A model generated the notes under the pieces. It saw nothing but the letters and a program-made list of their open reading frames with translations. It searched no databases and was not told the DNA's origin. A stretch of 64,000 nucleotides of DNA from Mesonia mobilis DSM 19841. GTDB taxonomy: Bacteria > Bacteroidota > Bacteroidia > Flavobacteriales > Flavobacteriaceae. The DNA is taken from contig NZ_KE384013.1 of the NCBI RefSeq assembly GCF_000423405.1, forward strand, positions 307,705 through 371,704, in the 5' to 3' direction. Shown piece after piece: positions 5,481 to 25,637 of this stretch (the stretch's first letter is position 1; every line of letters starts with the position of its first letter). Both the position numbers and the translations under genes were made by a program.

Positions 5481-5579
5481 CAAGGGATAGTAGTGGCATC
5501 CTTTTTTGTTGTGCTTCGACAAGCTCAGCATGACAACAAAAAAGATATAGCGAATAGCCCGACCCGATAGGGATGCAGC
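5481..5579 (+). repeat. Structured repeat family A, copy 1, with a nested family B palindrome
   Basis: It runs from AAGGGATAGTAGTGGCATCC through a T-run, a variable stem, an A-run and AAAGATATAGCGAATAGCCC to GACCCGATAGGGATGCAGCC. The terminal hairpin is CCC-GATA-GGG. The variable stem is TTTTTTGTTGT/ACAACAAAAAA, and its loop holds the family B palindrome TGCTTCGACAAGCTCAGCA (5512-5530). Read in the sense of the minus-strand gene it follows (stop at 5580), the repeat starts immediately after the stop. It lies between convergent genes and could end transcripts from both sides. Confidence 0.85.
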
Positions 5580-6215
5580 CTAACTATTTTTCGCTTTCAA
5601 TCCAATATAAATATTTCTAATATAGATGATTGAACCACCGGCGTGAGCTGCAAATAAAACCGGGTCTTCTCGCATCACCGCGTAATAAATTAGAATTGCA
5701 GATCCCACAATGCTCAGGATCCAGAAGTTGGTGGGTAAACCCGATTCTTTTTCTTGTTCAGAATAATACCATTGGTATAGAAATCTACCGGTATAAATAA
5801 TCTGGCCAATCACTCCAATAGCCATTAACCAAGTTGCAATACCATTTTCTTCTTGTTGTGAAAATAGTAAGCTGAAATTGATATTCGCCCAAAATATTCC
5901 GTAGAAAATCGCGAAAAGAGGAAAGCCAATCACTACAATTTTGAACAATATATTCGTGGGTTTCCATTCATTTTGAAGTTGAAGATTTCTGATGAAAACA
6001 TAGTAAATAATTACTTGCCCAAGCATAATTGAGAAATCTTTTCGCAAGTAACCATAGATAAAAAAAATAATGGCAGCGATAAGGCTGAGTTTCCAAAAAG
6101 CTGAAGGTGTTTCTAATTGCTTAGCTTTTTCAGATTTTAACCACTGAAGAATAATTCGCGATGCAAATATAAACTGCGCGACAAAACCAACCGCATAAAT
6201 CATCCAATCATTCAT
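5580..6215 (-). CDS. LAB_N-domain membrane protein (lipid-A-disaccharide synthase N-terminal domain-like), two repeats
   Basis: The 211-residue protein is all-helical and hydrophobic. Two similar halves (about 1-80 and 120-205) each carry the pattern G-x2-Q-x-(I/F)-x4-R-x2-Q-W: VGFVAQFIFASRIILQW and IGVIGQIIYTGRFLYQW. This is the LAB_N fold seen in small membrane proteins near lipid glycosylation genes. I place the start at ATG 6215 (MNDWMIYA); an upstream TTG at 6233 lies in what looks like the promoter/leader. The leader is 19/20 identical over 20 nt to that of the pseudouridine synthase gene at 12606. It could act with the nearby glycosyltransferases on a lipid carrier; that is inference. 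Confidence 0.75.
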   Translation of the reverse strand: MNDWMIYAVGFVAQFIFASRIILQWLKSEKAKQLETPSAFWKLSLIAAIIFFIYGYLRKDFSIMLGQVIIYYVFIRNLQLQNEWKPTNILFKIVVIGFPLFAIFYGIFWANINFSLLFSQQEENGIATWLMAIGVIGQIIYTGRFLYQWYYSEQEKESGLPTNFWILSIVGSAILIYYAVMREDPVLFAAHAGGSIIYIRNIYIGLKAKNS

Positions 6216-6275
6216 AGTCGAAATTTTTTGCAATAACGGTATTTTAGGACCAACTATTTAGTTTTTGGCAAAAGC

Positions 6276-7811
6276 TTATTTCTTGTTTAACGCTACTCGT
6301 TTTACCTCATACACGTCTTTTCTTCTATCTTTTAAGTTATGAACGCTTCCAAAAGTGTGTAACTCTCTTAGTAAATCGATATCTACATCGGCCACTAAGA
6401 TCATCTCTGCATTTGGGGTCGCTTCGGCTTTAATTCCGTTACTCGGGAACGCAAAATCACAAGGTGTAAAAACGGCCGATTGTGCATATTGAATATCCAT
6501 ATTGTGCACGTTTGGTAAATTACCAACGCTACCGGCAATGGCAACATAACATTCGTTTTCAACCGCTCGAGCCTGTGCGCAAAGTTTTATACGCGAATAG
6601 CCGTTTTGTGTGTCGGTTAAAAACGGAACAAACAAAATATCCATTCCTTCTTCAGCTAATAGTCGAGAAAGCTCTGGGAATTCAACATCATAACAAATTA
6701 GAATTCCAATTTTACCGCAATCGGTATCAAAAGTTTTGACGATATTTCCTGTTTGCATTCCCCAAACTCTAGCTTCATCTGGAGTAACGTGTATTTTTTC
6801 AAAACGTTCTATGCTTCCGTCACGTTTGCACAAATAACCAACATTGTAAAGTTTACCATCGATCATTTCAGGCATACTTCCGGAAATAATATTGATATTA
6901 TAAGAAACGGAAAGTTCTGAAAAAAGCTCAATAATTGTTTCTGTAAAACCTGCCAATTCTCGAATAGCTTCCGGTTCACTCATATGGTTGTAAGCCGCCA
7001 TTAACGGAGCGTTAAAAAACTCAGGAAACAAAGCAAAATCTGAACGATAACCGGCAACGGTATCGATAAAATATTCGGCTTGATGCATTAAATCTTCTAA
7101 ACCTTCGTAGGTACGCATTTGCCATTGAATGAGCCCTAAACGCACGACACTTTTATTCGCAGAAGGCTTTTTACTGGGTTTGGTGTAATACACATTATCC
7201 CATTCCATCAACACCGCATATTCGCCAGAATCATCATCGCCTTCTAAATAACCTTTTAAAATTCGAACCGGATGAAAATCGTTAGACAGCTGAAAGTTTA
7301 ATACCGGATCGTGAATTTCTTTTGAACGTACTTTTTCAATGTATTGAAGCGGACTAATATCTTTTGAAAACTTATGGTAGTTGGGGATTCGTCCTCCAAA
7401 AACGATCCCTTTTAAGTTGAGGTTCTCGCAAAGTTCTTTTCGGTAATCGTAAAGACGGCGACCTAATCGTAAGCCGCGATAATCGGGTTTAATAAAGACA
7501 TCAATCCCGTAGAGCGTATCCCCCTCTTCATCGTGAATTTTAAATGAAGTATCTCCGGCAATATCGTCGTAGGTGTGATTATCATCAATTTCATCAAAAT
7601 CGACAATAACTGAAAGCGCGCATCCGGCAATATCACCATTCACTTTGATCACGATTTGCCCTTCCGGAAATAGCGAAATCAATTTTCCTATTTCATCTAA
7701 TTTCCAATACGAATTGGGCATCGAGTGGTAAGCTGCTTCTGTGGCTTCTTTCAACTCTTCAAAATCCTCTAAGGTGAGGTATTTTAACTCTACATTTTCA
7801 ATTTTATCCAT
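6276..7811 (-). CDS. Bifunctional GNAT acetyltransferase / carbon-nitrogen hydrolase fusion
   Basis: An N-terminal GNAT domain (about residues 1-200; acetyl-CoA loop YRGLRLGRRLY) is fused to a nitrilase-superfamily domain (about 220-505). The Glu-Lys-Cys triad is visible as FPEFF, FEKIHVTPDE and ILICYDVEFPE. The second domain should hydrolyse an amide or nitrile-type C-N bond; the acceptor of the acetyl group is unknown. I choose ATG 7811 (MDKIENVELK). The frame can be extended to a TTG at 7829, but that lies next to a palindromic repeat. The gene is downstream of a polyamine gene set on the same strand, separated by repeats, so a role with amine substrates is possible but unproven. Confidence 0.85.
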   Translation of the reverse strand: MDKIENVELKYLTLEDFEELKEATEAAYHSMPNSYWKLDEIGKLISLFPEGQIVIKVNGDIAGCALSVIVDFDEIDDNHTYDDIAGDTSFKIHDEEGDTLYGIDVFIKPDYRGLRLGRRLYDYRKELCENLNLKGIVFGGRIPNYHKFSKDISPLQYIEKVRSKEIHDPVLNFQLSNDFHPVRILKGYLEGDDDSGEYAVLMEWDNVYYTKPSKKPSANKSVVRLGLIQWQMRTYEGLEDLMHQAEYFIDTVAGYRSDFALFPEFFNAPLMAAYNHMSEPEAIRELAGFTETIIELFSELSVSYNINIISGSMPEMIDGKLYNVGYLCKRDGSIERFEKIHVTPDEARVWGMQTGNIVKTFDTDCGKIGILICYDVEFPELSRLLAEEGMDILFVPFLTDTQNGYSRIKLCAQARAVENECYVAIAGSVGNLPNVHNMDIQYAQSAVFTPCDFAFPSNGIKAEATPNAEMILVADVDIDLLRELHTFGSVHNLKDRRKDVYEVKRVALNKK

Positions 7812-7823
7812 CTTCAATTGTTT

Positions 7824-7860
7824 AACCACCCCTAACCCCTCCTTTAACAGGAGGGGATTT
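7824..7860. repeat. C/G palindrome upstream of the GNAT/nitrilase gene (family C)
   Basis: CCCCTCC (7836-7842) and GGAGGGG (7850-7856) form a 7-bp perfect stem with a 7-nt loop, preceded by CCACCCCTAA and followed by ATTTTTT. The T-run makes it a possible terminator on the plus strand, but no plus gene ends here, so I treat it as an interspersed repeat. Confidence 0.55.
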
Positions 7861-7949
7861 TTTAATTAGTTTGCGAAATCTCACAGATTTTTTAAAATTA
7901 AGGAGGTTTATTTATACTTCAAGAATCTTTTAATAGTAATGGAAATTTC

Positions 7950-8921
7950 TTACATATCTAATAAATACGCAAAAATTAGTGGAGCAACGATAGTCGCGTC
8001 ACTTTCTATAATGAATTTTGGTGTATCGATATCGAGTTTTCCCCAAGTAATTTTTTCATTAGGAACTGCTCCGGAATACGAGCCATAACTGGTGGTTGAA
8101 TCTGAAATCTGACAGAAATAACTCCAAAATGGCGTATCGGTACGTTCCATATCTTGATATAACATAGGCACTACACAAATAGGGAAATCGCCGGCAATAC
8201 CACCACCGATCTGGAAGAAACCGATTCCGTTTTTAGAATTATCGGTGTACCAATCTGCTAAGAACGTCATGTATTCAATACCAGATTTCATGGTGCTGGC
8301 TTTCAATTCACCTTTTAATACATAGCTGGCAAAAATATTTCCCATTGTACTATCTTCCCAACCTGGAACAACAATTGGTAAGTTTTTTTCAGCAGCAGCA
8401 TACATCCAAGAGTCTTTTAAGTCGATCTCGTAGTATTCTTCTAGAACTCCACTTAATAACATTTTGTACATAAATTCATGCGGAAAGTAACGTTCGCCGG
8501 CCTCTTCGGCATCTTTCCAGATTTTGTAAATATGTTGTTGTAAACGTCTAAAAGCTTCTTCTTCAGGAATGCAAGTATCGGTTACTCGGTTTAAACCATT
8601 TTCTAATAAATCCCATTCTTCCTTAGGCGTAAGGTCACGATAATTAGGAACGCGTTTGTAGTGTGAGTGCGCTACTAAATTCATGATATCTTCTTCTAAA
8701 TTGGCTCCCGTACAAGAAATGATTTGCACTTTATCTTGGCGAATCATTTCTGCAAAAATTTTACCAAGTTCTGCGGTACTCATCGCTCCGGCAAGTGAAA
8801 CTAACATTTTAGCTCCGCCATTAAGTTGCTCTTCGTAAGCTTTAGCCGCATCGACAACCGATGCTGCGTTAAAGTGTAAATAGTATTTTTGTATAAATTC
8901 TGAAATTGCTCCTTTACTCAT
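7950..8921 (-). CDS. Deoxyhypusine synthase-like protein, probable homospermidine/polyamine synthase
   Basis: The 323-residue protein belongs to the deoxyhypusine synthase family throughout. It has the NAD-binding stretch (LAGAMSTAELGKIFAEMI, ISCTGANLEEDI), GFFQIGGGIAGDFPIC and a C-terminal ITWGKLDIDTPKFIIESDA, whose WGK lysine aligns with the imine-forming lysine of DHS. Bacteria have no eIF5A, so hypusine formation is not expected. Bacterial members are known or thought to transfer an aminobutyl group to putrescine. The gene lies downstream of speA and speB on the same strand, which supports this. Start at ATG 8921 (MSKGAISEF), after an AAGGAG about 15 nt upstream. Confidence 0.85.
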   Translation of the reverse strand: MSKGAISEFIQKYYLHFNAASVVDAAKAYEEQLNGGAKMLVSLAGAMSTAELGKIFAEMIRQDKVQIISCTGANLEEDIMNLVAHSHYKRVPNYRDLTPKEEWDLLENGLNRVTDTCIPEEEAFRRLQQHIYKIWKDAEEAGERYFPHEFMYKMLLSGVLEEYYEIDLKDSWMYAAAEKNLPIVVPGWEDSTMGNIFASYVLKGELKASTMKSGIEYMTFLADWYTDNSKNGIGFFQIGGGIAGDFPICVVPMLYQDMERTDTPFWSYFCQISDSTTSYGSYSGAVPNEKITWGKLDIDTPKFIIESDATIVAPLIFAYLLDM

Positions 8922-9028
8922 TTTATTATTTTTTGTCTCCTTGAGTAATATCGAGAAGTCTATGACGATTCTTTTCAAAATGACTCAAGAGATAATTTTT
9001 TTTGTTAACTCAATTTTTTAATTCGAAG

Positions 9029-9100
9029 CTGTCATGCTAAACTTGATTTAGCATCTCACTCTGCTTAGGATGAGACCCTGAATCAAGTTCAGGGTGACGA
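9029..9100. repeat. REP-like palindromic pair, family B (second locus)
   Basis: Two units face each other. Unit 1 (9029-9057) is CTGTCATGC, TAAACTTGATTTAG and CATCTCA; unit 2 (9071-9100) is TGAGACC, CTGAATCAAGTTCAG and GGTGACGA. The reverse complement of unit 2 matches unit 1 in length and frame (GTCA - stem - CTTGATT - stem - TCTCA), with paired changes in the stem (GCT/AGC against CCT/AGG). It lies between speB and the DHS-like gene on the minus strand. Confidence 0.8.
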
Positions 9101-9134
9101 TATTTGGTTATCCTTTTTTACGAAAATTTAAAAC

Positions 9135-10013
9135 TTATTCGTCTTCATCTTCACCGTCGTAATCTTCATATTTAAACTTATAGCTAAGCATTTTATAGTA
9201 AAGCTTTGCGGCTAAAAAGTCTGAAGATTTTTCGGCTGGGTTCGGGCATAATTCAACAATATCGAAACCAACCACATTTTTTTTCTTGAAGATGGTTCTA
9301 ATAAAATCTAAGGTTTCATACCAAAACAATCCGCCCGGTTCCGGAGTTCCTGTCGAAGGAAGAATTGAAGGATCAAACGCATCTAGATCGATGGTTAGAA
9401 AAACATTTGGCGTCATTTGCCCAATTGCATCATCCATCCAATCTTCATAAAGATCGTGAGCAAAATAGACTTGGTTTTCATCCATATATTCTAATTCTTC
9501 CGCATCCATCGAGCGAATACCAACCTGAATTAAATTGGTAGTTTTACTCGCCTCGTGAACGGCACAAGCGTGATTGCATTTAGAACCTTCGTATTCTTTA
9601 CGTAAATCGGCATGCGCATCGATTTGTACTACGGTTAGATCTTCAAAAGATTCATTAAACGCACGAATTGTACCTATAGAAATTGAATGTTCACCTCCAA
9701 AAAGTGTGACAAACTTCTCCTGCTGAATGTAATTTTTAGTGGTTTTATAAACCGCTTCTACCATTTTTTCAGGCGAAGAATTTTCGGTTACGGGTGGCGT
9801 TAAATAAACACCTTTTTTATACACCTCAGAACGGGTTTCAATATCGAAAAGCTCCATATTTTCTGAAGCTTCTAAAAATGCCTGCGGACCTTTATCTGCA
9901 CCTTTTTGCCAAGTGCTGGTGCCATCGTAAGGAATAGGAATTAATACTACTTTTGCCTCGTCTAAACGAGCGTATTTGTCGGGAATACCCGCGTAGTTTT
10001 TCTTAGTTGTCAT
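9135..10013 (-). CDS. speB: Agmatinase (arginase/ureohydrolase family)
   Basis: This 292-residue ureohydrolase converts agmatine to putrescine and urea. The two-Mn2+ site is complete: GGEHSISIG, the D-A-H-A-D motif in VQIDAHADLRKEYEGS, and the D-x-D-x-F-D-P motif in TIDLDAFDPSILPSTGTPEP. The length fits agmatinases. Its first 11 nt overlap the end of the arginine decarboxylase gene, so the two are translationally coupled. The acidic C-terminus (EDYDGEDEDE) is typical of flavobacterial forms. Agmatinase rather than arginase is inferred from the neighbour. Confidence 0.9.
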   Translation of the reverse strand: MTTKKNYAGIPDKYARLDEAKVVLIPIPYDGTSTWQKGADKGPQAFLEASENMELFDIETRSEVYKKGVYLTPPVTENSSPEKMVEAVYKTTKNYIQQEKFVTLFGGEHSISIGTIRAFNESFEDLTVVQIDAHADLRKEYEGSKCNHACAVHEASKTTNLIQVGIRSMDAEELEYMDENQVYFAHDLYEDWMDDAIGQMTPNVFLTIDLDAFDPSILPSTGTPEPGGLFWYETLDFIRTIFKKKNVVGFDIVELCPNPAEKSSDFLAAKLYYKMLSYKFKYEDYDGEDEDE

Positions 10014-11403
10014 CGTAACCTAAAATTTTAAGTAAGTCTTCACTTTTTTGTTGTTCTTTAAATAGTTTGGTACTCAAGTTTCCTTCTTCATCTTTATTAA
10101 TCAAGATATGTTTTGGAGTTGGGATCAAACAGTGTTGTAAACCGCCAAAACCACCAATCGTTTCTTGGTAAGCTCCCGTGTTAAAGAAGCCGATGTATAA
10201 AGGTTTTTCTTTTTTGAATTTTGGTAAATAAATAGCGTTCATATTTTGTTCGCTATTGTAATAGTCGTCACTATCGCAAGTGAGTCCGCCTAATAAAACT
10301 CTTTCATATTCATCATTCCAACGGTTAACGGCTAGCATAATAAAACGCTTGTTAATGGCCCAAGTATCTGGTAAAGTAGTGATGAATGAGGAGTTGATCA
10401 TATTCCATTTTTCACGATCGTTTTGTTGTTTTTGGTATAACACTTCATAGATCGCTCCGCCACTTTCGCCAACGGTAAAACTTCCGAATTCAGTAAAAAT
10501 ATGCGGTACAGGAACTTCAGCCTCTTGACACGCAATATTGATCTGGTTAATAATCTCATCGATCATATATTGATAATCGTAATCAAACTGAAGCGAGTTT
10601 TTAATCGGGAAACCACCGCCAATATTTAAACTATCCAAAGTTGGGCAAATACGTTTTAACCGAATATAAACTTTAAGACACTTCAGTAATTCGTTCCAGT
10701 AATACGCTGTATCGCGAATACCGGTGTTAATGAAAAAGTGAAGCATTTTAAGTTCAACCTTATCGTTGTTTTTGATTTGCTCTTCGTAAAAGGGAACGAT
10801 GTTTTTATAACCAATCCCTAAACGAGAAGTATAAAACTCAAATTTAGGTTCTTCTTCAGAAGCAATACGAATACCAATTTTAAAGTCGTCTTTAATTTCA
10901 TCTGAAAGAAGATCGATCTCTTCATAGTTATCAATAATCGGAATACAGTTTTGATGCCCATTATTAATTAATCGACCAATATTAGTAATGTATTGTTCGC
11001 GTTTAAAACCGTTACAGATCACGTACGTATCTTTGGTGATCTTTCCTTTTTTCTGAAGTTTTTCAACAATATTAATATCGAATGCCGATGAGGTTTCAAT
11101 ATGAATATCATTTTTTAAGGCTTCATCTAAAACGTGCTGAAAATGCGAACTTTTAGTACAATAGCAATAATTATAATTGCCTTTGTAGTTATGCTTTTCA
11201 ATCGCATATGTAAACCATTTTTTGGCTTTCTGAATGTTCTCTGAAATTTTCGGTAAATAGGTGAATTTTAAAGGCGCACCATATTCTTCGATTAATTTCA
11301 TAAGGTCAATCCCATGAAATTGTAATGTGTCTTCCTTTAAATCAAACTCTTCCTGCGGAAAATAATAAGTTTGATCTATAAGATCGATGTATTTAGTATT
11401 CAT
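10003..11403 (-). CDS. speA: Biosynthetic arginine decarboxylase, short form
   Basis: This 466-residue PLP enzyme has the alanine racemase-like barrel. The PLP lysine is in CYCTKSSHFQ (about residue 85), followed by the phosphate-binding LNIGGGFPI, FTEFGSFTVGESGG, and the substrate-side cysteine/aspartate motif LTCDSDDYY near residue 375. It is shorter than the roughly 630-residue enterobacterial SpeA, as is usual in Bacteroidota. It converts arginine to agmatine, the substrate of the overlapping speB product. ATG 11403 is the first of the minus-strand polyamine cluster. Confidence 0.85.
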   Translation of the reverse strand: MNTKYIDLIDQTYYFPQEEFDLKEDTLQFHGIDLMKLIEEYGAPLKFTYLPKISENIQKAKKWFTYAIEKHNYKGNYNYCYCTKSSHFQHVLDEALKNDIHIETSSAFDINIVEKLQKKGKITKDTYVICNGFKREQYITNIGRLINNGHQNCIPIIDNYEEIDLLSDEIKDDFKIGIRIASEEEPKFEFYTSRLGIGYKNIVPFYEEQIKNNDKVELKMLHFFINTGIRDTAYYWNELLKCLKVYIRLKRICPTLDSLNIGGGFPIKNSLQFDYDYQYMIDEIINQINIACQEAEVPVPHIFTEFGSFTVGESGGAIYEVLYQKQQNDREKWNMINSSFITTLPDTWAINKRFIMLAVNRWNDEYERVLLGGLTCDSDDYYNSEQNMNAIYLPKFKKEKPLYIGFFNTGAYQETIGGFGGLQHCLIPTPKHILINKDEEGNLSTKLFKEQQKSEDLLKILGYDDN

Positions 11404-11721
11404 TAATTTTTATTGAAATAAATTGAGGTTTTGCTAAAATCTATAGAAAGTTATAAAAAGTTGAAATAACTAATCTTAAATTAAAGCAAAATTTGATTTG
11501 AAGTAACCGGAATAAATGCCAGTTCTTGATAAAAAGAAGGTCTTAAGGCGGAAGCTAGCTTTAAAATTCGGTGGTTTACCTGGTAACCTATTTTTGAAAT
11601 TGACTTCCTCACGTTCAAAAACCCGAAACTATAAACAGTATTCAATATGTTCAGCTAAATGCGCAGCAAATAAAATCTATTTTTTATTCTTGTGGAATAG
11701 TCGAAATGTTAAAATTTAAAA
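11404..11721. other. Non-coding stretch upstream of speA
   Basis: This 318-nt AT-rich gap should hold the speA promoter. I found no exact TAnnTTTG box; the closest is TAACTTTC on the minus strand near 11445. A 67-codon plus-strand frame at 11516-11719 has a Lys/Arg/Ser-rich composition with no recognisable domain, and I do not call it a gene. Confidence 0.5.
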
Positions 11722-11759
11722 TAAAAAAAGCCTTTTGAATAATTAATCAAAAGGCTTTC
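11722..11759 (-). terminator. Rho-independent terminator of the pseudouridine synthase gene
   Basis: On the minus strand GAAAGCCTTTTGA and TCAAAAGGCTTT form a long stem around an AT loop, followed by a T-run. It begins about 22 nt after the stop of the gene at 11782. Confidence 0.85.
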
Positions 11760-11781
11760 GAATTTCTTTAAAAACTTAGTT

Positions 11782-12606: not shown

Positions 12607-12621
12607 AGTTGAAATTTTTTG

Positions 12622-16356: not shown

Positions 16357-16878
16357 ATGGAAAAGTGGTTTGAAGCTTCTACAACCTCAATTTTTGCAAT
16401 CGCCATTACGTGTTTTGTGATCTATTTTTTAGTGTTTTTATTTACACGAATTGTAGGAAAACGAAGCTTTGCTAAAATGTCGAGTTTAGATTTTGCGGTT
16501 ACTATTGCGATAGGTTCGGTGATTGCTTCAACAATCATTTTAAAAAATGTAAGTTTAGTACAAGGTGGCTTTGCTTTATTATTACTATACGTTATACAGT
16601 GGATAGCTTCAAAATTAAGAAGGGTAGAAGCTTTAAAAAAAATGCTCGATAATACTTCTTTGCTTTTAATGGATAAAACTGAAATTTTACACCATAATCT
16701 TAAAAAAGCTAACGTAACTGAAGACGATCTAAAAGCAAAGCTTAGAGAAGCCAACGTACTCAATTTAGCTGAAGTTAGAGCGGTAGTTTTTGAAAGTACC
16801 GGCGATATTTCTGTGTTACATACCAATGATGCCAACAAAGAATTAGAAGATTGGCTGTTAACCGATGTGACGCGCTAA
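16357..16878 (+). CDS. DUF421 (YetF/YcaP-type) membrane protein
   Basis: The 173-residue protein has three N-terminal membrane helices and a C-terminal soluble DUF421 domain. Signature segments are FTRIVGKRSFAKMSSLDFAV and AIGSVIASTI, then LLLMDKTEILHHNLKKANV and LNLAEVRAVVFESTGDISV. The function of the family is not settled, although links to envelope and spore proteins exist in other phyla. Its TAA overlaps the ATG of the next gene (TAATG), implying coupled translation. Confidence 0.9.
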   Translation: MEKWFEASTTSIFAIAITCFVIYFLVFLFTRIVGKRSFAKMSSLDFAVTIAIGSVIASTIILKNVSLVQGGFALLLLYVIQWIASKLRRVEALKKMLDNTSLLLMDKTEILHHNLKKANVTEDDLKAKLREANVLNLAEVRAVVFESTGDISVLHTNDANKELEDWLLTDVTR

Positions 16879-17486
16879 TGTACCAACCTAAGAAATATAA
16901 AAAGCAAGATCCGTATATATTCAAATTCATTCAGCAGCATCCGTTTGCTACGTTTGTGATCCAACAAGAAGAATTGCAAGCCACGCATATTCCTGTTTTG
17001 GTAGATGGCAATGCTGAAAATTTTAGATTATTTAGCCATATCGCCAACCATAACGAGCTATTTACAGCCTTAAAAAACGGTGCAAAAGCTTTGTTTATTT
17101 TTCAAGGGAATCACGCTTACGTTTCCTCTTCTTGGTACGAGCAAAAAGACATTAGCACTTGGGATTATTCTGCAGTTCACGTTTCGGTCGAAATCGAGTT
17201 GCAAACCACTGCAGAGTTAGAAAATTCATTAGATAAATTGGTGAATCATTTCGAAAAAGATCAAGAGCAACCTTTATTTTACAAAAACCTGCCTAAGCCT
17301 TTAGTGAATGATCATTTACCGTTAATTACCGGTTTTTGGGCTAAGCCACTTCAGGTTAAAGCCATTGCCAAGCATCATCAAGGTTCATCGACGAAAAATG
17401 TAAAAAATGTAATTCAGCATTTATCTAAAAACGGAAATACTTTACTTGCCCAAGAAATTAAAAAAGAAAACCTGAATAATGATTAG
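16878..17486 (+). CDS. PaiB-type FMN-binding split-barrel protein
   Basis: The 202-residue protein begins MYQPKKYKKQDPYIFKFIQQ, the typical PaiB start, and carries HIPVLVD, FSHIANHN, ALFIFQGNHAYVSSSWY (about 77-93) and GFWAKPLQVKAIAKHHQ. Family members bind FMN; the Bacillus member is called a negative transcriptional regulator, though it has no DNA-binding domain that I can see here. ATG 16878 overlaps the upstream stop by 1 nt. A family A repeat begins directly after its stop codon. Confidence 0.85.
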   Translation: MYQPKKYKKQDPYIFKFIQQHPFATFVIQQEELQATHIPVLVDGNAENFRLFSHIANHNELFTALKNGAKALFIFQGNHAYVSSSWYEQKDISTWDYSAVHVSVEIELQTTAELENSLDKLVNHFEKDQEQPLFYKNLPKPLVNDHLPLITGFWAKPLQVKAIAKHHQGSSTKNVKNVIQHLSKNGNTLLAQEIKKENLNND

Positions 17487-17580
17487 GGCGTTACCCGTTG
17501 GGTCGGGCTATCTGCTTAATCTTTTTTAATCACTGCTTGGGCAGAAATTAAAAAAGGATATCGCGTCTATCCCTAACGCA
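17487..17580 (-). repeat. Structured repeat family A, copy 2
   Basis: Starting with the base after the PaiB stop, the plus strand reads GGCGTTACCCGTTGGGTCGG, then GCTATCTGCTTAATC, a T-run, a stem, an A-run and GGATATCGCGTCTATCCCTA. The first hairpin is ACCC-GTT-GGGT. The central stem is CTTTTTTAAT/ATTAAAAAAG around CACTGCTTGGGCAGAA. In its reverse complement it aligns over its whole length with the copies at 5481 and 25541. Confidence 0.85.
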
Positions 17581-17653: not shown

Positions 17654-17678
17654 TATTTTAACCTAAAATCAATGAGAT

Positions 17679-19254: not shown

Positions 19255-20476
19255 TTACTACAGATTTTGCAATGGCTTGTGCAGCTAAAAAACCGCCCGT
19301 CCAAGCATTTTGAAAATTAAAACCACCGGTAATCGCATCAATATTCAAAATTTCTCCGGCTAAGTAAAGTTTAGGGTAAAGTTTACTTTCAAAAGTTTTA
19401 AAATTAATTTCTTTTAGATCTACTCCGCCGGCTGTCACAAACTCTTCTTTAAAAGTGCTTTTTCCGTTCACGGTGAGTTGGCATTGCGTTAATTCTTGCG
19501 CTAATTTGTGTATTTGTTTATTGCTCAATTCTGCCCATTTTTGGTCTTCAGGAAATCTAGCGGCTTTCAATAAACTCAACCATAAACGCTTAGGTAAATT
19601 AAATTGTGCGTGTGTGGTGAGTTGTTGCTTTGCAAATTTATGCTTGAGCCTTTTTATTTTTTCTAAAATTTCTTCAGCAGTAGTATAGCCTAACCAATTC
19701 ACCTGAATTTTAAAATGATAATTACGCGCTTCTAAAATACGAGCACCCCAAGCAGAAAGCTTTAAAATTCCGGGTCCGCTTAAACCCCAATGTGTGATTA
19801 ATAATGGGCCGTCGCTCTCTAATTTTTCATCTAAGATTTTAAGATGTGCAAAAGTTGAAATACCAGCCAGATCTTTAATGCGATGATCTTGAATGTTGAA
19901 GGTAAATAGCGAAGGAACCGGTTGTACAATTTGATGACCAAGTTTTTCTAGAAGCTTCCAGATTTTTGGATTGCTACCCGTTGCCATAACAAGTTGATCT
20001 GCCGTAAAATCTCCTTTTAAAGTTTTTACCAACCAGCGATCATTATTTTGCTGAATATCTTGAACCGAATGTCCTGTTTTTATTTCAATATTTAAACGTT
20101 CGGTTTCGGCAAGAAAACAATCGATAATCGTTTCTGAAGAATCGGTTATTGGGAACATTCTTCCGTCTTCTTCCGTTTTCAATTCAATACCGCGTTCGTC
20201 AAACCAAGCAATTGTATCGCCGGTCATAAATTGATGAAAAGGTCCTAATAATTCTTTTTCACCACGCGGATAATTTTTGCTAAGTTCTTTCGGAATAAAT
20301 TCTGCGTGTGTTACATTGCAACGACCACCACCAGAAATTCTAACCTTGGTTAACACTTCTTTACCACGTTCTAGAATAGTGATTTTTAGATCGGGATTGG
20401 CTTCAGCTAAATTAATGGCTGTAAAAAATCCCGCTGCACCGCCGCCAATAATGAGTACTTCTTGCTCTTGCATCAT
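19244..20476 (-). CDS. HI0933/YhiN-family NAD(P)/FAD-dependent oxidoreductase
   Basis: The 410-residue flavoprotein has the FAD-binding start VLIIGGGAAGFFTAINLAE (residues 7-25), the family motif KVRISGGGRCNVTH (about 44-57) and a C-terminal FAD motif GEILNIDAITGGFNFQNAW. This pattern defines the HI0933-like family, whose substrate is unknown. A TACTTTTG box ends only 4 nt before ATG 20476 (ATG 20473 is next), so the mRNA may be leaderless. It is the first gene of a two-gene unit with the SBF transporter. Confidence 0.9.
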   Translation of the reverse strand: MMQEQEVLIIGGGAAGFFTAINLAEANPDLKITILERGKEVLTKVRISGGGRCNVTHAEFIPKELSKNYPRGEKELLGPFHQFMTGDTIAWFDERGIELKTEEDGRMFPITDSSETIIDCFLAETERLNIEIKTGHSVQDIQQNNDRWLVKTLKGDFTADQLVMATGSNPKIWKLLEKLGHQIVQPVPSLFTFNIQDHRIKDLAGISTFAHLKILDEKLESDGPLLITHWGLSGPGILKLSAWGARILEARNYHFKIQVNWLGYTTAEEILEKIKRLKHKFAKQQLTTHAQFNLPKRLWLSLLKAARFPEDQKWAELSNKQIHKLAQELTQCQLTVNGKSTFKEEFVTAGGVDLKEINFKTFESKLYPKLYLAGEILNIDAITGGFNFQNAWTGGFLAAQAIAKSVVNEN

Positions 20477-20480
20477 ACTG

Positions 20481-20488
20481 CAAAAGTA
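20481..20488 (-). promoter_or_regulatory. TAnnTTTG promoter box abutting a start codon
   Basis: TACTTTTG on the minus strand with a TTG 16 nt upstream of it. Transcription should begin about at the ATG at 20476, so a leaderless transcript is likely. Confidence 0.6.
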
Positions 20489-20565
20489 AGGATTTGATTG
20501 TTCTCAAGTTGAATTTGCTTCATTTTATATTTTAATGAAAGTAAGGCTTCAACTATTTTATTTCT

Positions 20566-20573
20566 TAAATTTG
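20566..20573 (+). promoter_or_regulatory. TAnnTTTG promoter box of the lipoprotein gene
   Basis: TAAATTTG, 63 nt upstream of ATG 20637. No convincing -33 element at the usual distance. Confidence 0.5.
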
Positions 20574-20636
20574 AAGAGAGCTTTAGGTTAAATTGATTTC
20601 AGCCTATCAACTAACAGATTTTTATTTATTCAACAC

Positions 20637-21068
20637 ATGAAAAAAACATTTTTACTTATTTTTTCCGGAATGTTATTAGCAAGCTGTGGAGAAACGCCAA
20701 AACCCTCTAAAGAAAAAATACATTACGATGAAAGTATAGATGAAATTTTAGCAGTACACGATGAAGTGATGCCAAAAATGGGAGAGCTTTCCAGCTTAAT
20801 TGAAAAAACAGAAGCAAAGATCGATACCACCGATGCGGGTAAAAAATTTAAAGTGGTGAACGAAGAATTAAAAGGAGCTCACGATTTTATGATGACCTGG
20901 ATGAGAGATTTTGGAGAGAAATTTCCGAATGCTTTAAAAGATACTACTTATACTTCTGAAGAATATGAAAAGCGCGAACCTCTGTTGGAAGAAGAAAAAG
21001 AAGAAGTAAGAGAAATGAAAGATCGCGTAACTGAAAGTATGAAAAACGCAAAAGACTTATTAAAATAA
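20637..21068 (+). CDS. Putative lipoprotein, helical, unknown function
   Basis: The 143-residue protein has a lipoprotein signal with lipobox LASC at residues 14-17 (MKKTFLLIFSGMLLASCGE). The mature part is rich in Glu and Lys and probably helical (residues 25-65 and 105-143). Flavobacterial homologues of this kind are sometimes labelled viral A-type inclusion protein, which has no functional meaning. The DoxX gene starts 6 nt downstream. Confidence 0.8.
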   Translation: MKKTFLLIFSGMLLASCGETPKPSKEKIHYDESIDEILAVHDEVMPKMGELSSLIEKTEAKIDTTDAGKKFKVVNEELKGAHDFMMTWMRDFGEKFPNALKDTTYTSEEYEKREPLLEEEKEEVREMKDRVTESMKNAKDLLK

Positions 21069-21074
21069 TTAATT

Positions 21075-21482
21075 ATGGGATATAGAACAAACTTAAGCTT
21101 ACCGGCAACAGATTTAGCGGTTTTACTTTTTAGAATTGGGGTTTCTGCTTTAATGTTACCCCACGGCTATAGTAAGTTAATGCAGTTTTTTAGCGGAGAT
21201 GAAATACAATTTGCAGACCCGATCGGGATTGGAGCAACAGGAAGTTTAGCGCTAGCCGTATTTTCAGAATTTATCTGTTCTGTGCTTATTATTTTAGGTT
21301 TAGGTACTCGTTTAGCGGCTATACCTTTAGTAATTACAATGCTTGTGGCAGTTTTTATAGTGCACGCCGCATACGGAATGTCTCACCAAGAATTACCACT
21401 TTTATACCTATTTAGCTATGTGTTATTAATGCTAACCGGTTCGGGTAAATATTCGTTAGATCATTACTTTTTAAAGAAGTAA
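21075..21482 (+). CDS. DoxX-family membrane protein
   Basis: The 135-residue protein has four membrane helices. Typical DoxX features are LLFRIGVSALMLPHGYSKL (about 18-36) and FSEFICSVLIILGLGTRLAA (about 66-85). DoxX-like proteins are linked to quinone or thiol redox processes, but the exact role is open. It ends 4 nt before a strong terminator, so the lipoprotein/DoxX pair is a two-gene unit. Confidence 0.85.
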   Translation: MGYRTNLSLPATDLAVLLFRIGVSALMLPHGYSKLMQFFSGDEIQFADPIGIGATGSLALAVFSEFICSVLIILGLGTRLAAIPLVITMLVAVFIVHAAYGMSHQELPLLYLFSYVLLMLTGSGKYSLDHYFLKK

Positions 21483-21486
21483 ATTA

Positions 21487-21517
21487 AAAAAAAGCGGTTT
21501 TTAAACCGCTTTTTTTA
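21487..21517 (+). terminator. Rho-independent terminator after the DoxX gene
   Basis: The perfect stem AAAGCGGTTT/AAACCGCTTT is followed by TTTTTTT, starting just after the stop codon at 21482. Confidence 0.9.
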
Positions 21518-21583
21518 TTTATAAAAGTATTAAGATTCACTTTGAAGCGATTGACTTATTTTTAGTTGAAATAAATCTTTCTT

Positions 21584-21732
21584 ATGAAATCTCGTCGCAA
21601 CTTTCTTAAAAATGCCGGTTTGTTAACAGCCGGATCTGTTATAGCTCCTCAACTTTCATTTTCAAATTCTTCCGAAAAAAAATTGATAATACTTCTTCCG
21701 CGTTTTTAATTCAGAATTCAAGTATTATTACG
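21584..21732 (+). pseudogene. Detached Tat-signal N-terminus of the amidohydrolase (frameshifted)
   Basis: ATG 21584 opens a frame encoding MKSRRNFLKNAGLLTAGSVI and then APQLSFSNSSEK, a clear twin-arginine signal peptide (RRNFLK). It reaches a stop at 21707-21709 after leaving an A8 run (21675-21682). Reading one frame over after the run gives KIDNTSSAFLIQNSSIITMDD, which joins directly to the downstream amidohydrolase. With nine A residues the gene would be intact from 21584 to 22977. The break is thus one missing base in a homopolymer. Confidence 0.85.
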
Positions 21733-22977
21733 ATGGATGATGATCTGGGAGAATTAATACAAACCGATATCTTAGTTGAAAATGGAAAGATCAAGAAAAT
21801 CGGAGAGCATATTTCAGCATCTTCAGGTATTCAAAAAATTGATGGGAGTAATCACATTGTGATGCCGGGACTTATGGATAATCACTGGCATACTTGGACG
21901 TCTTTACTTAAAAGTATGTCTGGTAATTCTAAAAAAGAAGCCTATTTTAAAGTTACAGAAGAATACGGAAAGCTTTACCAACCCGAAACGATGTATTTAG
22001 CAACTAAATTTGCATTGGCAGAAGCTATACATTCCGGGATTACCACCATAAACGACTTTAACCATAATGCTAGAAATGCTGAGTTTGTTTGGGCAAGTTT
22101 TGAAGCGATAAAAGAAATGGGACTTAAGGGTCGTGTGAGTTATGGCTATTATCGTGATCTTAAAAGTGAAGAACCTACACCATTCTCAGAAATCGAAAAT
22201 GTATTGCAACAAAAGAAATCTCAAGAAGGTTATGAAGATATAAAACTTGGTTTTGGTTCTCGAGCGGTTGGTTATCCTTATTTGAAGAAAGATTGGGAAC
22301 AAGCCCGAGCATTAAATATGCCCATTGCTATACACGCGAGTTCTACACCAAAAGATAAGAATCAAATCCAGCAATTATCGAAATGGCAACTGTTAGGTAA
22401 TGATGTAAATATCATTCATGCAAATGCTATTACCGATGAAGAAATTACAGCAGTAAAAAATAGCGGAGCTTCAATAACAATGACACCTTATTCTGAAATG
22501 CGTATCGGCTTTGGCTTTCCGCAGGTAAATAGATTAGTCAACCAAGATATTAGGCTTGGGGTAGGAGTAGATTCTACTGCACTTAGCGGCAGCTCTAATT
22601 TGCTAAACACACTAAAGCTTTTAGAAAATGTTGCCAATGCACAGGCAATGAGTGAGTTTGGTGTTGCCTCTCATCGTTTATTAAAAATGGCAACTATCGA
22701 TGCTGCTAAAATTTTAGGAATTAGTGATCAAACCGGTTCTATTACTGAAGGAAAACAAGCAGATCTAATTATGATCAATAGAGATCATATTAATCTAAGC
22801 TCGGGTAATAAACTTGAAAAATTAGTGATTGAAGCAGCTCAAAATTTTAATATCGATTTTGTAGCTTCTAAAGGAAAAATTTTAAAACAAAATGGAGAAC
22901 TTACTCAAATTGATGAAGGAGAATTAAAAAATGAAGTTAATAACACCTTTGGTAAAATGACCAAGCGATTAAACTGA
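21733..22977 (+). CDS. Amidohydrolase (TrzA/SsnA-like cyclic deaminase family), main part of a split gene
   Basis: The remaining 414-residue frame is a metal-dependent amidohydrolase. It has HWHTWT (metal HxH) near residue 52, a histidine in IAIHASS (about 200), IIHANAI (about 231) and the metal Asp in GVDSTALSGSSNLL (about 272), then the C-terminal KQADLIMINRDH sheet. The substrate is unknown; cyclic amidines or ring deamination are the family norm. The true start is most likely the Tat signal at 21584, making an exported enzyme if the frame is restored by slippage or a sequencing correction. Its 3' end overlaps the convergent flavoprotein gene by 9 nt. Confidence 0.8.
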   Translation: MDDDLGELIQTDILVENGKIKKIGEHISASSGIQKIDGSNHIVMPGLMDNHWHTWTSLLKSMSGNSKKEAYFKVTEEYGKLYQPETMYLATKFALAEAIHSGITTINDFNHNARNAEFVWASFEAIKEMGLKGRVSYGYYRDLKSEEPTPFSEIENVLQQKKSQEGYEDIKLGFGSRAVGYPYLKKDWEQARALNMPIAIHASSTPKDKNQIQQLSKWQLLGNDVNIIHANAITDEEITAVKNSGASITMTPYSEMRIGFGFPQVNRLVNQDIRLGVGVDSTALSGSSNLLNTLKLLENVANAQAMSEFGVASHRLLKMATIDAAKILGISDQTGSITEGKQADLIMINRDHINLSSGNKLEKLVIEAAQNFNIDFVASKGKILKQNGELTQIDEGELKNEVNNTFGKMTKRLN

Positions 22978-24027
22978 AACCGGTTCTAATTCGTGCTTTT
23001 TTATTTGCGTTGCCAAATATTCAGCATCTTTTTGTATTCCTCCAAGTGTTGCAGAACCTCTTGTATGTAACCAAGGTAAACCAATAAAATAAAGTCCTTT
23101 AATACTACTTACTCCTCGATTGTTTTTTGGGTAACCTTCGTGATCAAGCTCCAAACCTTTGATCCAAGAGAAATTAGGGCGGTAACCGGTAGCCCAAACA
23201 ATATTTTTTACATCGGTAAGGGTTTGTTTTTCGGTTTCGATCTTGTCTTCGTGTGCATCGTTGGTTCTGCCGACGGCAATTACATTTTTTCGGCTTAAAA
23301 TTTCTTTTACATCGGTACCAATCACCGGTTGTTTAGAATGACTAATGCGCTTGCCTATAAACGATTTTTTACTGAAGCTTAAAAAACCGGTTTTGGTGAA
23401 CCACCACCAAAGCGTTTTGCCTAAAATTTCCTGCGGAAGTGTCTTTACGTCGGTATCGCCAGAAAAATAAGTGGTTCTCCCGTCTTTAGAAATTTCATCT
23501 AAAATTTGAAAACCGCTATCGCCGGCACCAACAACCATTGCTGCACCTTCTTGCAACTGACTCGGATTTTTATAATAATTACTATGTATTTGAAAAACAC
23601 ATTGATCGATCTGTTTAGAACAAGGCGGCGTGTACGGTATATGAAACGGTCCTGTAGCCACGATAACTTGTTTGGTTTCAAAAGTTTCATTATCGGTAAA
23701 AACCAAAAACTTTTCCTCTATCTTTTCAATTTTTCGAACCAAGGTTTTTAGTTGAACCGGAAAATCGAATTTCTTCACATAGCTTTTAAAATAATCGGCA
23801 ACTTCATATTTATTAGGATAGTGACCCTTACGAGCCGGAAAATCCATCCCGGCAAGATGGTTAAATTCTGTTGGGGTAAAAAGTTTTAAAGAATCCCAAC
23901 GATTAAGCCAACTGGCACCAATTTCTTCTTCTTTATCTAGTATTAAAAATTTTTTATTTAATTGCTTTAAATAATAAGCCATCGATAAACCGGCTTGAGC
24001 AGCTCCAATAATTATAAAATCCCGCAT
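22969..24027 (-). CDS. Flavin-containing monooxygenase-like NAD(P)/FAD oxidoreductase
   Basis: The 352-residue protein has two Rossmann motifs: an FAD site at the very N-terminus (FIIIGAAQAGLSMAYYL) and an NADPH site MVVGAGDSGFQILDE (about 163-177). The C-terminal motif GLYFIGLPWLHTRGSATLGG is typical of group B monooxygenases of the CzcO/YhfW type. In the first site the middle Gly of GxGxxG is Ala (G-A-A-Q-A-G), so FAD binding may be altered. The substrate is unknown. It overlaps the 3' end of the amidohydrolase gene. Confidence 0.85.
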   Translation of the reverse strand: MRDFIIIGAAQAGLSMAYYLKQLNKKFLILDKEEEIGASWLNRWDSLKLFTPTEFNHLAGMDFPARKGHYPNKYEVADYFKSYVKKFDFPVQLKTLVRKIEKIEEKFLVFTDNETFETKQVIVATGPFHIPYTPPCSKQIDQCVFQIHSNYYKNPSQLQEGAAMVVGAGDSGFQILDEISKDGRTTYFSGDTDVKTLPQEILGKTLWWWFTKTGFLSFSKKSFIGKRISHSKQPVIGTDVKEILSRKNVIAVGRTNDAHEDKIETEKQTLTDVKNIVWATGYRPNFSWIKGLELDHEGYPKNNRGVSSIKGLYFIGLPWLHTRGSATLGGIQKDAEYLATQIKKHELEPVSV

Positions 24028-24188
24028 GTTGTGTTTGTTCTGGGAATATTATAACCTTTTTTCTGCTGAAACGCAAGTTTTTAGAAAATAACTCTAAATA
24101 TTATTAAATAGGCAACTTGACTTTAATTTTAAAATCAATAGGTCTTAAGCTCGTTTATTTATTTTTCTGTTATCTTCGAAATCTAGCT

Positions 24189-25052
24189 ATGGAAGATCTT
24201 ATTATTGCACTTATTGGCATTCTTTTTTTTCTTGGGATGTTTGCGATTATCATTGTAAAATCAATCTCTCTATTCGATGTGCTTTATTTGCATTTCTTTA
24301 AAAAGCCCATTTATATTCATTTTTATTTTAAGCTGAAAAAGCTAAACTATCAAGACGAGCGATTTATTAAAGACCGTTTCCCTTTTTACAATCGTTTAAA
24401 ACCGAAACAACAAAAGTTTTTTCAGCATCGGGTTATCATTTTTATGAACGATAAGTCTTTTGAAGCACGTGAAGGTTTTCATATGAATAATGAAGTAAAG
24501 CTTTATATTTCTGCCACGGCGGTAATGCTAACCTTCGGGATGCGCGATTTTCTATTACCGGCGGTTCATAAAATTTTGGTTTACCCAGATGTTTATCATT
24601 CTACTATCAATGATGCCTACCATAAAGGAGAATTTAATCCTAGAATGAGGGCTTTAGTTTTCTCTTGGAAACATTTTTTAGAGGGTTTTGCCAGCGACCG
24701 CGATAATATCAATTTAGCTGTTCATGAGTGGGTACACGTGATTCAATTCAACAGTAAAAAAGAACACGATATTAGCGCCAGTATTTTTGATGATACTTCT
24801 AAAGAACTGGTAAAGCTTTTACTTTACGATAATATTAGGCAGCGCTTAGAAGATACAAAGTATTTTCGAGAATATGCGTTTACAAATGAGTTTGAATTTG
24901 TAGCGGTTCTTGTAGAATATTTTATTGAAAGCCCGATCGAGTTCAGGCAGAAATTTCCTGAGTTTTATGCGAAAGTGAAAAAAATGCTGAATTATAATTT
25001 TGCCGGATACAAAAAAAGCAGTATGAAAATATACTGCTTTAATTTTATTTGA
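24189..25052 (+). CDS. MtfA/M90-type zinc-dependent peptidase, membrane-anchored
   Basis: The 287-residue protein has one N-terminal membrane helix (about 3-25) and a soluble domain with the zinc motif HEWVH near residue 180 (NLAVHEWVHVIQF) and a downstream acidic ligand region TNEFEFVAVLVEYFIE, as in MtfA. It lacks the E. coli regulatory context. I choose ATG 24189 (MEDLIIALIG); the frame extends to 24117, but a near-consensus TATCTTCG box lies in between. The last dozen codons run through a terminator hairpin, so the original stop may have been earlier. Confidence 0.85.
   Translation: MEDLIIALIGILFFLGMFAIIIVKSISLFDVLYLHFFKKPIYIHFYFKLKKLNYQDERFIKDRFPFYNRLKPKQQKFFQHRVIIFMNDKSFEAREGFHMNNEVKLYISATAVMLTFGMRDFLLPAVHKILVYPDVYHSTINDAYHKGEFNPRMRALVFSWKHFLEGFASDRDNINLAVHEWVHVIQFNSKKEHDISASIFDDTSKELVKLLLYDNIRQRLEDTKYFREYAFTNEFEFVAVLVEYFIESPIEFRQKFPEFYAKVKKMLNYNFAGYKKSSMKIYCFNFI
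25015..25050 (+). terminator. Terminator hairpin lying inside the peptidase coding end
   Basis: The perfect 10-bp stem AAAGCAGTAT/ATACTGCTTT is followed by AATTTTATTT. It overlaps the final codons of the preceding gene, whose stop is at 25050-25052. Confidence 0.75.
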
Positions 25053-25065
25053 GAAGTTTTAACAA

Positions 25066-25464
25066 CTAGCTTATTGCTTTCTTAGCTGCGCTTGCTACTT
25101 GGTGATCGTTCTCTACAGAACTACCAGATACTCCTATCGCTCCAATCACTTCCCCATCATGTTCAATAGTTACTCCACCGGGGAAAGTTATAAGACCGTT
25201 GTTTGAATGCTCTATACTAAAAAAAGATTTTCCTGGCTGAGAAAGTTTTCCTATTTCTCCAGTATCCATATCGAAATAACGAGAAGTTTTAGCTTTTTTA
25301 ATTGCAATATCTATAGACCCTAACCAAGCGCCTTCCATTCTATTAAATGCCATTAGGTTTGCACCTGCATCAACTACGGCAATGTTCATTTTTAAATTAA
25401 GTTCTTTAGATTTTTTAATCCCAGCTTCTACAGCTTTTTGTGCTTGTTCTAAGGTAAGTTTCAT
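25066..25464 (-). CDS. GlcG/HbpS-family heme-binding-like protein
   Basis: The 132-residue protein is a single GlcG/HbpS domain: [52 protein letters not shown], and the C-terminal [20 protein letters not shown]. No signal peptide is seen, so it is cytoplasmic here. Members bind heme or cobalamin-like ligands or occur with glycolate and diol operons; none of these is nearby. I start at ATG 25464; the longer frame to 25530 has an unlikely Ile/Lys/Asn-rich extension. Confidence 0.85.
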
Positions 25465-25540
25465 ATCTATTTTTTTATTTTTCTGAATATAATAAATATT
25501 TAACTTGATAAAGAACTTATTAATAAGCATTTAACGTTTT

Positions 25541-25637
25541 TGCGCTAGGGATAGTAGCGGCATCCTTTTTATGCTTTTTAAAAGCATAAAAAGATATAGC
25601 GAATAGCCCGACCCAAATTTATTTGGGTAGCGTCCTA
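25541..25637 (+). repeat. Structured repeat family A, copy 3
   Basis: It runs from TGCGCTAGGGATAGTAGCGG and CATCC through TTTTTATGCTTTT/AAAAGCATAAAAA and GATATAGCGAATAGCCCG to ACCCAAATTTATTTGGGT and AGCGTCCTA. The terminal hairpin is ACCCAAA/TTTGGGT. Read in the sense of the minus-strand NYN gene (stop at 25642), it starts 4 nt after the stop codon. Confidence 0.85.

Follow-up and report, generated by a model that had tools for sequence, protein, structure and literature searches.

The three structured repeats in a 64,000-nucleotide stretch of the Mesonia mobilis DSM 19841 genome (hereafter the window) are Flavo-1 elements (RF01705), and most form-I copies of this family, to which the window copies belong, form a three-way junction with covarying stems, closed by an outer stem (P0) that is new here and absent from the Rfam model. 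Tentatively, we propose that Flavo-1 is a chromosomal element that functions as folded single-stranded DNA rather than as a transcribed RNA, with a structured RNA as a serious rival. A first-pass annotation had suggested that the repeats may be Flavo-1, which was borne out by an Rfam search in which all three exceeded the gathering cut-off of 42 bits (49.6–66.5 bits; E 2.3e-12 to 1.1e-7). The elements and their neighbours, in window positions, are as follows:

4119..5474, + strand: GT87-like gene, convergent on copy 1 (Pfam PF09594, 2.8e-7)
5478..5578, + strand (Rfam strand): Flavo-1 copy 1, Rfam 61.5 bits at 5469-5568; P0 5478-5482/5574-5578, core GGG 5484-5486/CCC 5558-5560, P1 5563-5565/5570-5572
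5512..5530, - strand: dispersed repeat TGCTGAGCTTGTCGAAGCA, lying within the apical stem of copy 1 (exact match; mean expected by chance 0.01)
5580..6233, - strand: LAB_N gene, followed by copy 1 (Pfam PF07578, 1.9e-52)
16851..17486, + strand: FMN_bind_2 (PaiB-like) gene, followed by copy 2 (Pfam PF04299, 9e-39)
17488..17579, - strand (Rfam strand): Flavo-1 copy 2, Rfam 49.6 bits; P0 17488-17492/17575-17579, P1 17493-17496/17500-17503, core 17505-17507/17571-17573
25542..25633, + strand (Rfam strand): Flavo-1 copy 3, Rfam 66.5 bits; P0 25542-25546/25629-25633, core 25548-25550/25607-25609, P1 25611-25617/25622-25628
25642..26382, - strand: NYN + OST-HTH/LOTUS gene, followed by copy 3 (Pfam PF01936, 7.5e-43)

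Behind each of the three genes that a window copy follows, the element has the same sense, with GGGTCGGGCTAT read first, and sequence and open reading frames show P0 separated from the stop codon by 1 nt at the LAB_N and FMN_bind_2 genes and by 8 nt at the NYN gene. Copy 1 sits between genes that converge on it, so a stop codon adjoins it on both sides. The folding strand of each copy is antisense to the gene followed; that of copy 1 runs in the same direction as the GT87-like gene converging on it, and the Rfam strand of copies 2 and 3 is antisense to both neighbours. Inside the window, Flavo-1 copies occupy both strands over a span of 20 kb, and both strands are likewise used within contigs. 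Copies 1 and 3 share the blocks GGGATAG and GATATAGCGAATAGCCCGAC, which have diverged in copy 2 (GATTAAGCAGATAGCCCGAC), and the central stems differ in sequence while their pairing is kept. On the Rfam strand P1 reads CCC-GATA-GGG, ACCC-AAC-GGGT and ACCCAAA-TTTA-TTTGGGT in copies 1, 2 and 3, and the corresponding P0 pairs are CTGCA/TGCAG, GCGTT/AACGC and GCGCT/AGCGT, the last with one G-T pair. Fold z-scores of this strand are -2.98, -5.04 and -6.56 with DNA parameters and -0.81, -3.86 and -4.55 with RNA parameters; the minimum free energy (MFE) structure is the three-way junction for copies 1 and 3 as either molecule, and for copy 2 as DNA but not as RNA.

Flavo-1 was described by Weinberg et al. 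2010 (PMC2864571) and stands among the most abundant sRNAs in the list of one review (PMC9029176); the accessible parts of the open-access PMC literature on Flavo-1 or RF01705 give no function for it. The M. mobilis DSM 19841 genome holds 39 matches, and the family was matched in 38 of 60 relatives. Among the matches listed in a genome scan, all of at least 80 loci carry Bacteroidota names.

In most form-I copies the 5-bp P0 encloses the P1 hairpin and the core stem. The Rfam consensus, in contrast, corresponds to form II and leaves P0 and P1 unpaired, while having the same core and the same host phylum as the window copies, for which the present evidence leans to DNA. Of 112 form-I copies, 100 had a perfect P0 (mean of shuffles 21, maximum 39); counting only copies with at least four of five pairs, P0 comprised 31 distinct sequence pairs, with GCGTT...AACGC as the commonest ends; as P0 was located through the best Watson-Crick match, wobbles within it are under-counted. 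A separate Bacteroidota sample, from which 6 of 81 matches had been dropped for want of a recognisable left arm, gave perfect P0 in 66 of 75 copies (shuffled mean 34, maximum 41), in 65 of 74 (mean 34) once the single copy common to both sets (L284, the same as L183) was removed, and in 47 of 56 (mean 19, maximum 26) when Aquimarina sp. 821-3Z, the source of 19 of the 75, was reduced to one copy. Core pairs were read from the 146-copy set, from which L045 (G010), L048 (G003) and the remaining G010 matches are missing, either because they were near-duplicates or through oversight; 10 copies were unparsed, 9 of those form II, and restriction to one copy per orthologous group dropped 48 of 136. 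The core X pair (n=88) was AT in 44, TA in 24, GC in 11, CG in 2 and TT in 7 (shuffled Watson-Crick mean 35.5, maximum 50). Two core mismatches are fixed, T.C at l5.r5 in 88/88 and C.T at l2.r2 in 78/88; the constancy of L4.R15 and L7.R12 is a product of the parser and is left out of the findings. The earlier proposal of covarying hairpin stems was upheld by core pairs and P0 across many copies, and pairing persists above shuffles in the additional ones.

The further proposal that the elements always follow a stop codon in the same sense describes the three window copies and fails as a rule. Using gene calls from a simple longest-ORF script, we found all four flanking-gene orientations among 146 copies (++ 74, -- 32, convergent 19, divergent 21). 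The window's own genome likewise showed no fixed sense relative to the preceding stop (16, 10, 8 and 5 of 39, in the same order; 14, 11, 8 and 4 under slightly different rules, with 2 lacking a gene on one side), and the 60 of 75 copies in the separate sample with an ORF on both sides gave 23, 16, 14 and 7. In that sample divergent gaps were if anything avoided (7/60 against 30/144 in the background, p = 0.16) and convergent gaps if anything favoured (14/60 against 19/144, p = 0.09). Flavo-1 lacks an orientation rule, although the relatives' set is biased and closeness to stops is common: one orientation prevailed by 49 to 20 in that set when each orthologous group was reduced to a single copy (p = 0.0006), and, of 69 form-I copies whose upstream gene is co-directional, 43 have P0 0–16 nt past the stop. 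Only ordinary genes, and no recurrent neighbour, were seen among the Flavo-1 clusters looked at. Two observations speak for a 3'-end terminator or mRNA-stabilising hairpin, a role that we nevertheless regard as very improbable: this position behind stop codons, and the terminators predicted in sense immediately upstream of 25 of the 146 copies, against 10 with one on the opposite side. T-rich sequence precedes the element and A-rich sequence comes after it, so that neither strand has a T run behind the fold; an intrinsic terminator is a GC-rich hairpin with a T run behind it, whereas here A-rich sequence comes next in the sense direction and on the Rfam strand alike. Further, no terminator-like site was found in 5300–5800 around copy 1, the 25 copies already lie behind a terminator, and copies occur in divergent gaps.

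The fold itself is supported as belonging to the Rfam strand. Variable columns contain 15 G-U cells on this strand and 3 on the other (p = 0.008), and in the 125 copies whose P0 is perfect, the Rfam strand has the full junction as its MFE structure in 96 with DNA parameters and 60 with RNA parameters, against 27 and 46, respectively, for the other strand. Few cells underlie the G-U asymmetry: the core alone has 9/429 against 2/422, and 8 of the 9 fall in column l4; loosely predicted terminators, as an RNA control, showed a weak asymmetry (G-U 50, A-C 35). The G-U rate of Flavo-1 (15/755, 2.0%) was lower than that of the TPP riboswitch of the same genomes (36/437, 8.2%; p = 7e-7), a gap that shrinks with stricter columns (80% Watson-Crick pairs; TPP 6/146, 4.1%). 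The attC control, to which Flavo-1 comes closer than to TPP, gave 3/143 in a small set of 16 sites and 9 variable pairs, and 53/546 paired cells with 4/171 in variable pairs on a bottom-strand RNA consensus, so that its result depends on the structure used. Given that RNA parameters recovered attC better than DNA parameters (0.90 and 0.60), the difference between 96 and 60 is no evidence for DNA, and the energy-model comparison was abandoned as a test of RNA or DNA. GNA- and GNNA-type loops are unusually stable in DNA. On the Rfam strand, P1 loops of the relatives' set (orthologues included) were GNA in 23 of 34 triloops and GNNA in 25 of 38 tetraloops, with no GNRA; the preference was not clear in the separate sample (GNA 7/19; GNNA 2/10, both GNRA).

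Our leading, still tentative, reading is that of folded single-stranded DNA. Once the duplex is open, its Rfam strand would fold into a hairpin with a three-way junction of P0, the small P1 hairpin and a core stem that carries fixed A.G mismatches and bears a replaceable apical stem. A putative protein reading folded single-stranded DNA would recognise the core, and the same protein probably also distributed copies to T-rich intergenic sites where genes end; from then on they would be inherited vertically with the fold under selection. In favour of this DNA model we counted covariation in P0 and core, the asymmetry between strands, in-place conservation, rare G-U pairs, GNA/GNNA loops, divergent-gap copies (21/146 and 7/60) and the published matches outside transcribed regions (PMC9723704). 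Against it we set the few cells behind the G-U asymmetry, the under-counted wobbles in P0, the narrower gap to TPP with stricter columns, the small attC control, the P1 loops of the separate sample, the comparison of divergent and convergent gaps with the background, and the orientation bias of the relatives' set, which fits transcription too. A structured RNA made from the Rfam strand, either an sRNA or an antisense 3'-end element in line with its Rfam entry, that binds a protein or pairs with transcripts, is a possibility to which we give somewhat less credence. Strong covariation and an RNA fold matching the junction in 60/125 copies suit it, the asymmetry between strands is equally expected of RNA, and several matches coincide with transcribed 5' regions in a Flavobacterium psychrophilum transcriptome (PMC9723704). 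The same study, however, reports matches sense or antisense alike and many outside transcribed regions (PMC9723704). Also against an RNA are the scarcity of G-U pairs relative to TPP (less clear with the stricter filter), Flavo-1 flank profiles in which no promoter consensus at a fixed distance was seen, and the antisense placement of window copies 2 and 3 to both neighbours. Of the initial claim of a selected RNA structure, the selected structure stands, through covarying stems and a core kept in place; its being RNA is called into question by the antisense folding strand, the rare wobbles and the transcriptome (PMC9723704).

REP sequences are mobilised with a cognate RAYT (Y1) transposase, and Flavo-1 resembles them in its dispersed intergenic palindromes and patchy copy number. 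A REP-like mobile palindrome devoid of host function, whose symmetry template switching would maintain and whose transposase is lost or unrecognised, strikes us as unlikely, yet it would accommodate several observations: copy numbers from 0 to 38 in 15 same-genus relatives, filled and empty orthologous sites (judged by eye), near-identical copies within one genome (e.g. L026/L027), and the dispersed repeat nested in the apex of copy 1, whose 19-mer has 34 genome matches at up to two mismatches (control 0). Unlike REP/RAYT systems, Flavo-1 yielded no cognate RAYT, and its copies are retained at orthologous sites, where their cores are conserved. Over 76 orthologous pairs, median identity was 0.91 in the core and 0.65–0.72 in the flanks, P0 was identical in 59% of orthologous against 12% of same-genome pairs, and apical stems were replaced while the core was kept. 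Such in-place conservation amid diverging flanks and apex argues against a REP-like palindrome, as do the fixed mismatches at l5.r5 and l2.r2, which template switching would be expected to correct. A RAYT/Y1 transposase was rejected as the mobiliser, since six genomes with 19–38 copies each (G003, G004, G010, G013, G018 and G032) lack any Y1_Tnp (PF01797) match; the single PF01797 match of the M. mobilis genome is flanked by palindromes other than Flavo-1. In four genomes searched by eye with exact arms, no autonomous version of greater length (unpaired left and right arms on the same contig and strand) was seen, and no protein partner was found in this analysis.

Integron attC sites share with Flavo-1 variable Watson-Crick stems, conserved unpaired bases, a single folding strand and a similar wobble rate. 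Their two ends carry RYYYAAC and GTTRRRY. Flavo-1 ends, by contrast, have GTT on the left and AAC on the right, so that on either strand the polarity is the opposite one, and P0 is variable. The RYYYAAC end is given in a study that also notes attC-like DNA motifs surfacing in RNA searches, such as OTH-22-1 (PMC8632094). Whereas attC sites lie between co-oriented cassettes beside an integrase, Flavo-1 is dispersed beside ordinary genes among the neighbours looked at, except in G048, in which 6 of 7 copies head cassette-like arrays. Relatives possess an integrase of ~400 aa with a series of co-oriented genes and attC-like repeats behind it, and Flavo-1 adjoins the integrase at 2 of 20 loci examined (G004 and G013, in a similar place); a loose pattern gave additional candidate matches in other parts of these loci. 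A link to integrons was rejected on the low count of two such loci, on G007, which has integrase and array with no Flavo-1 match (copy number thus not tracking the integrase), and on the few matches of array repeats to Flavo-1 flanks outside G048. A broader reading, that these are phylum-wide chromosomal elements acting as folded single-stranded DNA and not an RNA family, parallel to attC with opposite polarity, placed by a putative enzyme behind terminators and gene ends and marking cassette-array starts in G048, is conceivable, and we hold it with more reserve than the DNA model itself.

Together, the fuller structure and the assigned folding strand make the function of Flavo-1 testable. A family entered in Rfam from 2010 may have been filed under the wrong molecule, and these results suggest that comparing wobble rates with those of established RNA and DNA hairpins from the same genomes could serve as a check on other motifs.

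The three repeats claimed for the window by the first-pass annotation are real, and its guess that they belong to the Flavo-1 family (Rfam RF01705) is borne out by scores of 66.5, 61.5 and 49.6 bits, all above the gathering cut-off of 42; their identity is certain. These copies, and a further structured RNA match in the window, are:

5478-5578 (+), Flavo-1 copy 1, behind the LAB_N gene
17488-17579 (-), Flavo-1 copy 2, behind the PaiB-like gene
25542-25633 (+), Flavo-1 copy 3, behind the NYN gene
35456-35519 (-), S15-Flavobacteria ribosomal leader (RF03161, 72.5 bits)

At E <= 0.001 the M. mobilis genome holds 39 Flavo-1 matches, and 31 score above the cut-off. Under stricter filters than those of this count, 38 of 60 relatives have a match (34 above the cut-off), and copy number ranges from 0 to 38 across 15 same-genus relatives. 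A pattern scan of GTDB contigs found at least 80 loci, those listed being mostly from Flavobacteriaceae, plus Pedobacter, Chitinophagaceae, Marinifilum, Crocinitomicaceae and Cytophagales; one, in Mesonia phycicola (L284), is identical in place to a copy of the same-genus relative G013. Also observed were a tandem pair of near-identical copies 289 bp apart in Brumimicrobium glaciale (L339), right-arm pattern matches in 11 stretches of putative viral contigs from IMG/VR (L399-L409), and, at G000:C10:30450-30495 of the M. mobilis genome, what is probably a decayed copy: a left arm and the apical repeat are there, but the pattern list has no right arm to match.

We compared 146 copies, comprising 39 from M. 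mobilis, 7 relatives' loci from the genome search and 100 fetched further (picked from the best matches listed, with the relative G010 left out), which fall into form I (112, including the window copies), form II (31, corresponding to the Rfam consensus) and 3 unassigned. Form I is closed by a 5-bp outer stem (P0), inside which lie a small hairpin (P1) and the core stem; the resulting three-way junction is well supported. Of the 112 form-I copies, 100 have a perfect P0 (shuffled mean 21, maximum 39); the stem occurs as 31 distinct sequence pairs, most commonly GCGTT/AACGC. In a separately collected Bacteroidota sample it is perfect in 66/75 (shuffled mean 34, maximum 41), in 65/74 without one copy shared with the first set, and in 47/56 (shuffled mean 19, maximum 26) when an Aquimarina genome supplying 19 copies is cut to one. 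Core pairs covary across several Watson-Crick (WC) types among 88 copies, one per orthologous group, with WC pairs at positions N3_1, N3_2, X, l3 and l4 in 87, 87, 81, 87 and 78, counts that none of 1000 shuffles reached. The apical stem is free to vary; that of copy 1 holds a dispersed repeat matching 34 times in the genome. Two core mismatches, neither imposed by the parser used, are conserved: T.C at l5.r5 (88/88) and C.T at l2.r2 (78/88), both A.G on the strand matching the Rfam model.

This Rfam strand, antisense to the direction in which the window copies follow a stop codon, is most likely the one that folds. G-U cells in variable columns number 15 on it and 3 on the other strand, although 8 of its 9 core G-U cells fall in a single column. 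The full junction is the MFE structure in 96/125 cases with DNA parameters and 60/125 with RNA parameters on the Rfam strand, and in 27/125 and 46/125, respectively, on the other. All three window copies form the junction with DNA parameters; with RNA parameters, two of three do so on the Rfam strand and none of three on the other.

Judged by eye, the three window sites occur in filled and empty versions among same-genus relatives. The PaiB-like site is filled in M. mobilis, G010, G014 and G013 and degenerate in G002, among 13 genomes matching the gene, some matches possibly being paralogues; the LAB_N site is filled in M. mobilis, G010 and G004 among 11 genomes, and the NYN site in M. mobilis, G003 and G015 among 12. 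Thirty orthologous groups take in 82 of the 146 copies. Median identity across 76 orthologous pairs is 0.91 for the core, 1.00 for P0, 0.64 for the apex and 0.65-0.72 for the flanks, against 0.83, 0.70, 0.59 and 0.60 in unrelated pairs. Orthologous pairs share an identical P0 in 59% of cases and same-genome pairs in 12%, which speaks against within-genome homogenisation.

Loci probably representing chromosomal integron arrays, in each of which an integrase of ~400 aa precedes a set of variable, co-oriented genes and attC-like repeats, were observed in M. mobilis (L234) and in relatives (L237 in G010, and L238, L239, L245, L248 and L252); the papers retrieved on integrons with attC in Flavobacteriales seem, by their titles, unrelated. 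Flavo-1 lies directly upstream of an integron-like integrase in two relatives (L176 in G013, L196 in G004). In another relative, G048, six of seven copies (L224-L229) share ~300-400 nt of downstream sequence; preceded by the predicted terminator of an ordinary gene, they open runs of co-oriented, repeat-separated genes. A RAYT was rejected as partner protein. The sole Y1_Tnp match of the M. mobilis genome (L049) is flanked by CCTACAAGG-type palindromes, likely a separate REP family.

In all three window copies P0 lies 1-8 nt behind a stop codon in one sense, copy 1 between convergent genes. The fixed sense proposed from these copies does not extend to a general rule: by a simple ORF caller, the contexts of the 146 copies are ++ 74, -- 32, convergent 19 and divergent 21. 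Orientation is a bias in one set, since the relatives' set, at one copy per orthologous group (n=94), is skewed (++ 49, -- 20, convergent 15, divergent 10; ++ vs -- p = 0.0006) but the separate sample (n=60) gives 23, 16, 14 and 7 (p = 0.34); the sequences being related, p-values here and below are only guides. Predicted terminators stand directly upstream in sense of 25/146 copies and on the other side of 10/146 (p = 0.017); form-I flanks are T-rich on the sense 5' side, ending in GG, and A-rich on the 3' side, and form II has the T run without a clear A run. That Flavo-1 is a 3'-end hairpin appears improbable. A neutral palindrome is unlikely.

An RNA is a serious alternative. Flavo-1 has a G-U rate of 2.0%, versus 8.2% in 30 TPP riboswitches of relatives (Fisher p = 7e-7), and resembles 16 integron attC-like sites at 2.1% (3/143). 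The comparison has limits: when no energy model is used to define the columns, TPP riboswitches give 8.3%, or 4.1% at 80% WC, and attC-like sites 1.5%, or 0% at 80% WC; a bottom-strand RNA consensus of attC has G-U in 53/546 cells. DNA and RNA energy parameters fail to separate known RNA from known DNA. In the relatives' set P1 loops conform to GNA/GNNA, with no GNRA, a fit that is unclear in the separate sample. A published F. psychrophilum transcriptome (PMC9723704) reports Flavo-1 hits lying indiscriminately in sense or antisense to transcribed regions, and many beyond these regions. Over RNA, neutral palindrome and 3'-end hairpin, we tentatively prefer to read Flavo-1 as a structured DNA element.
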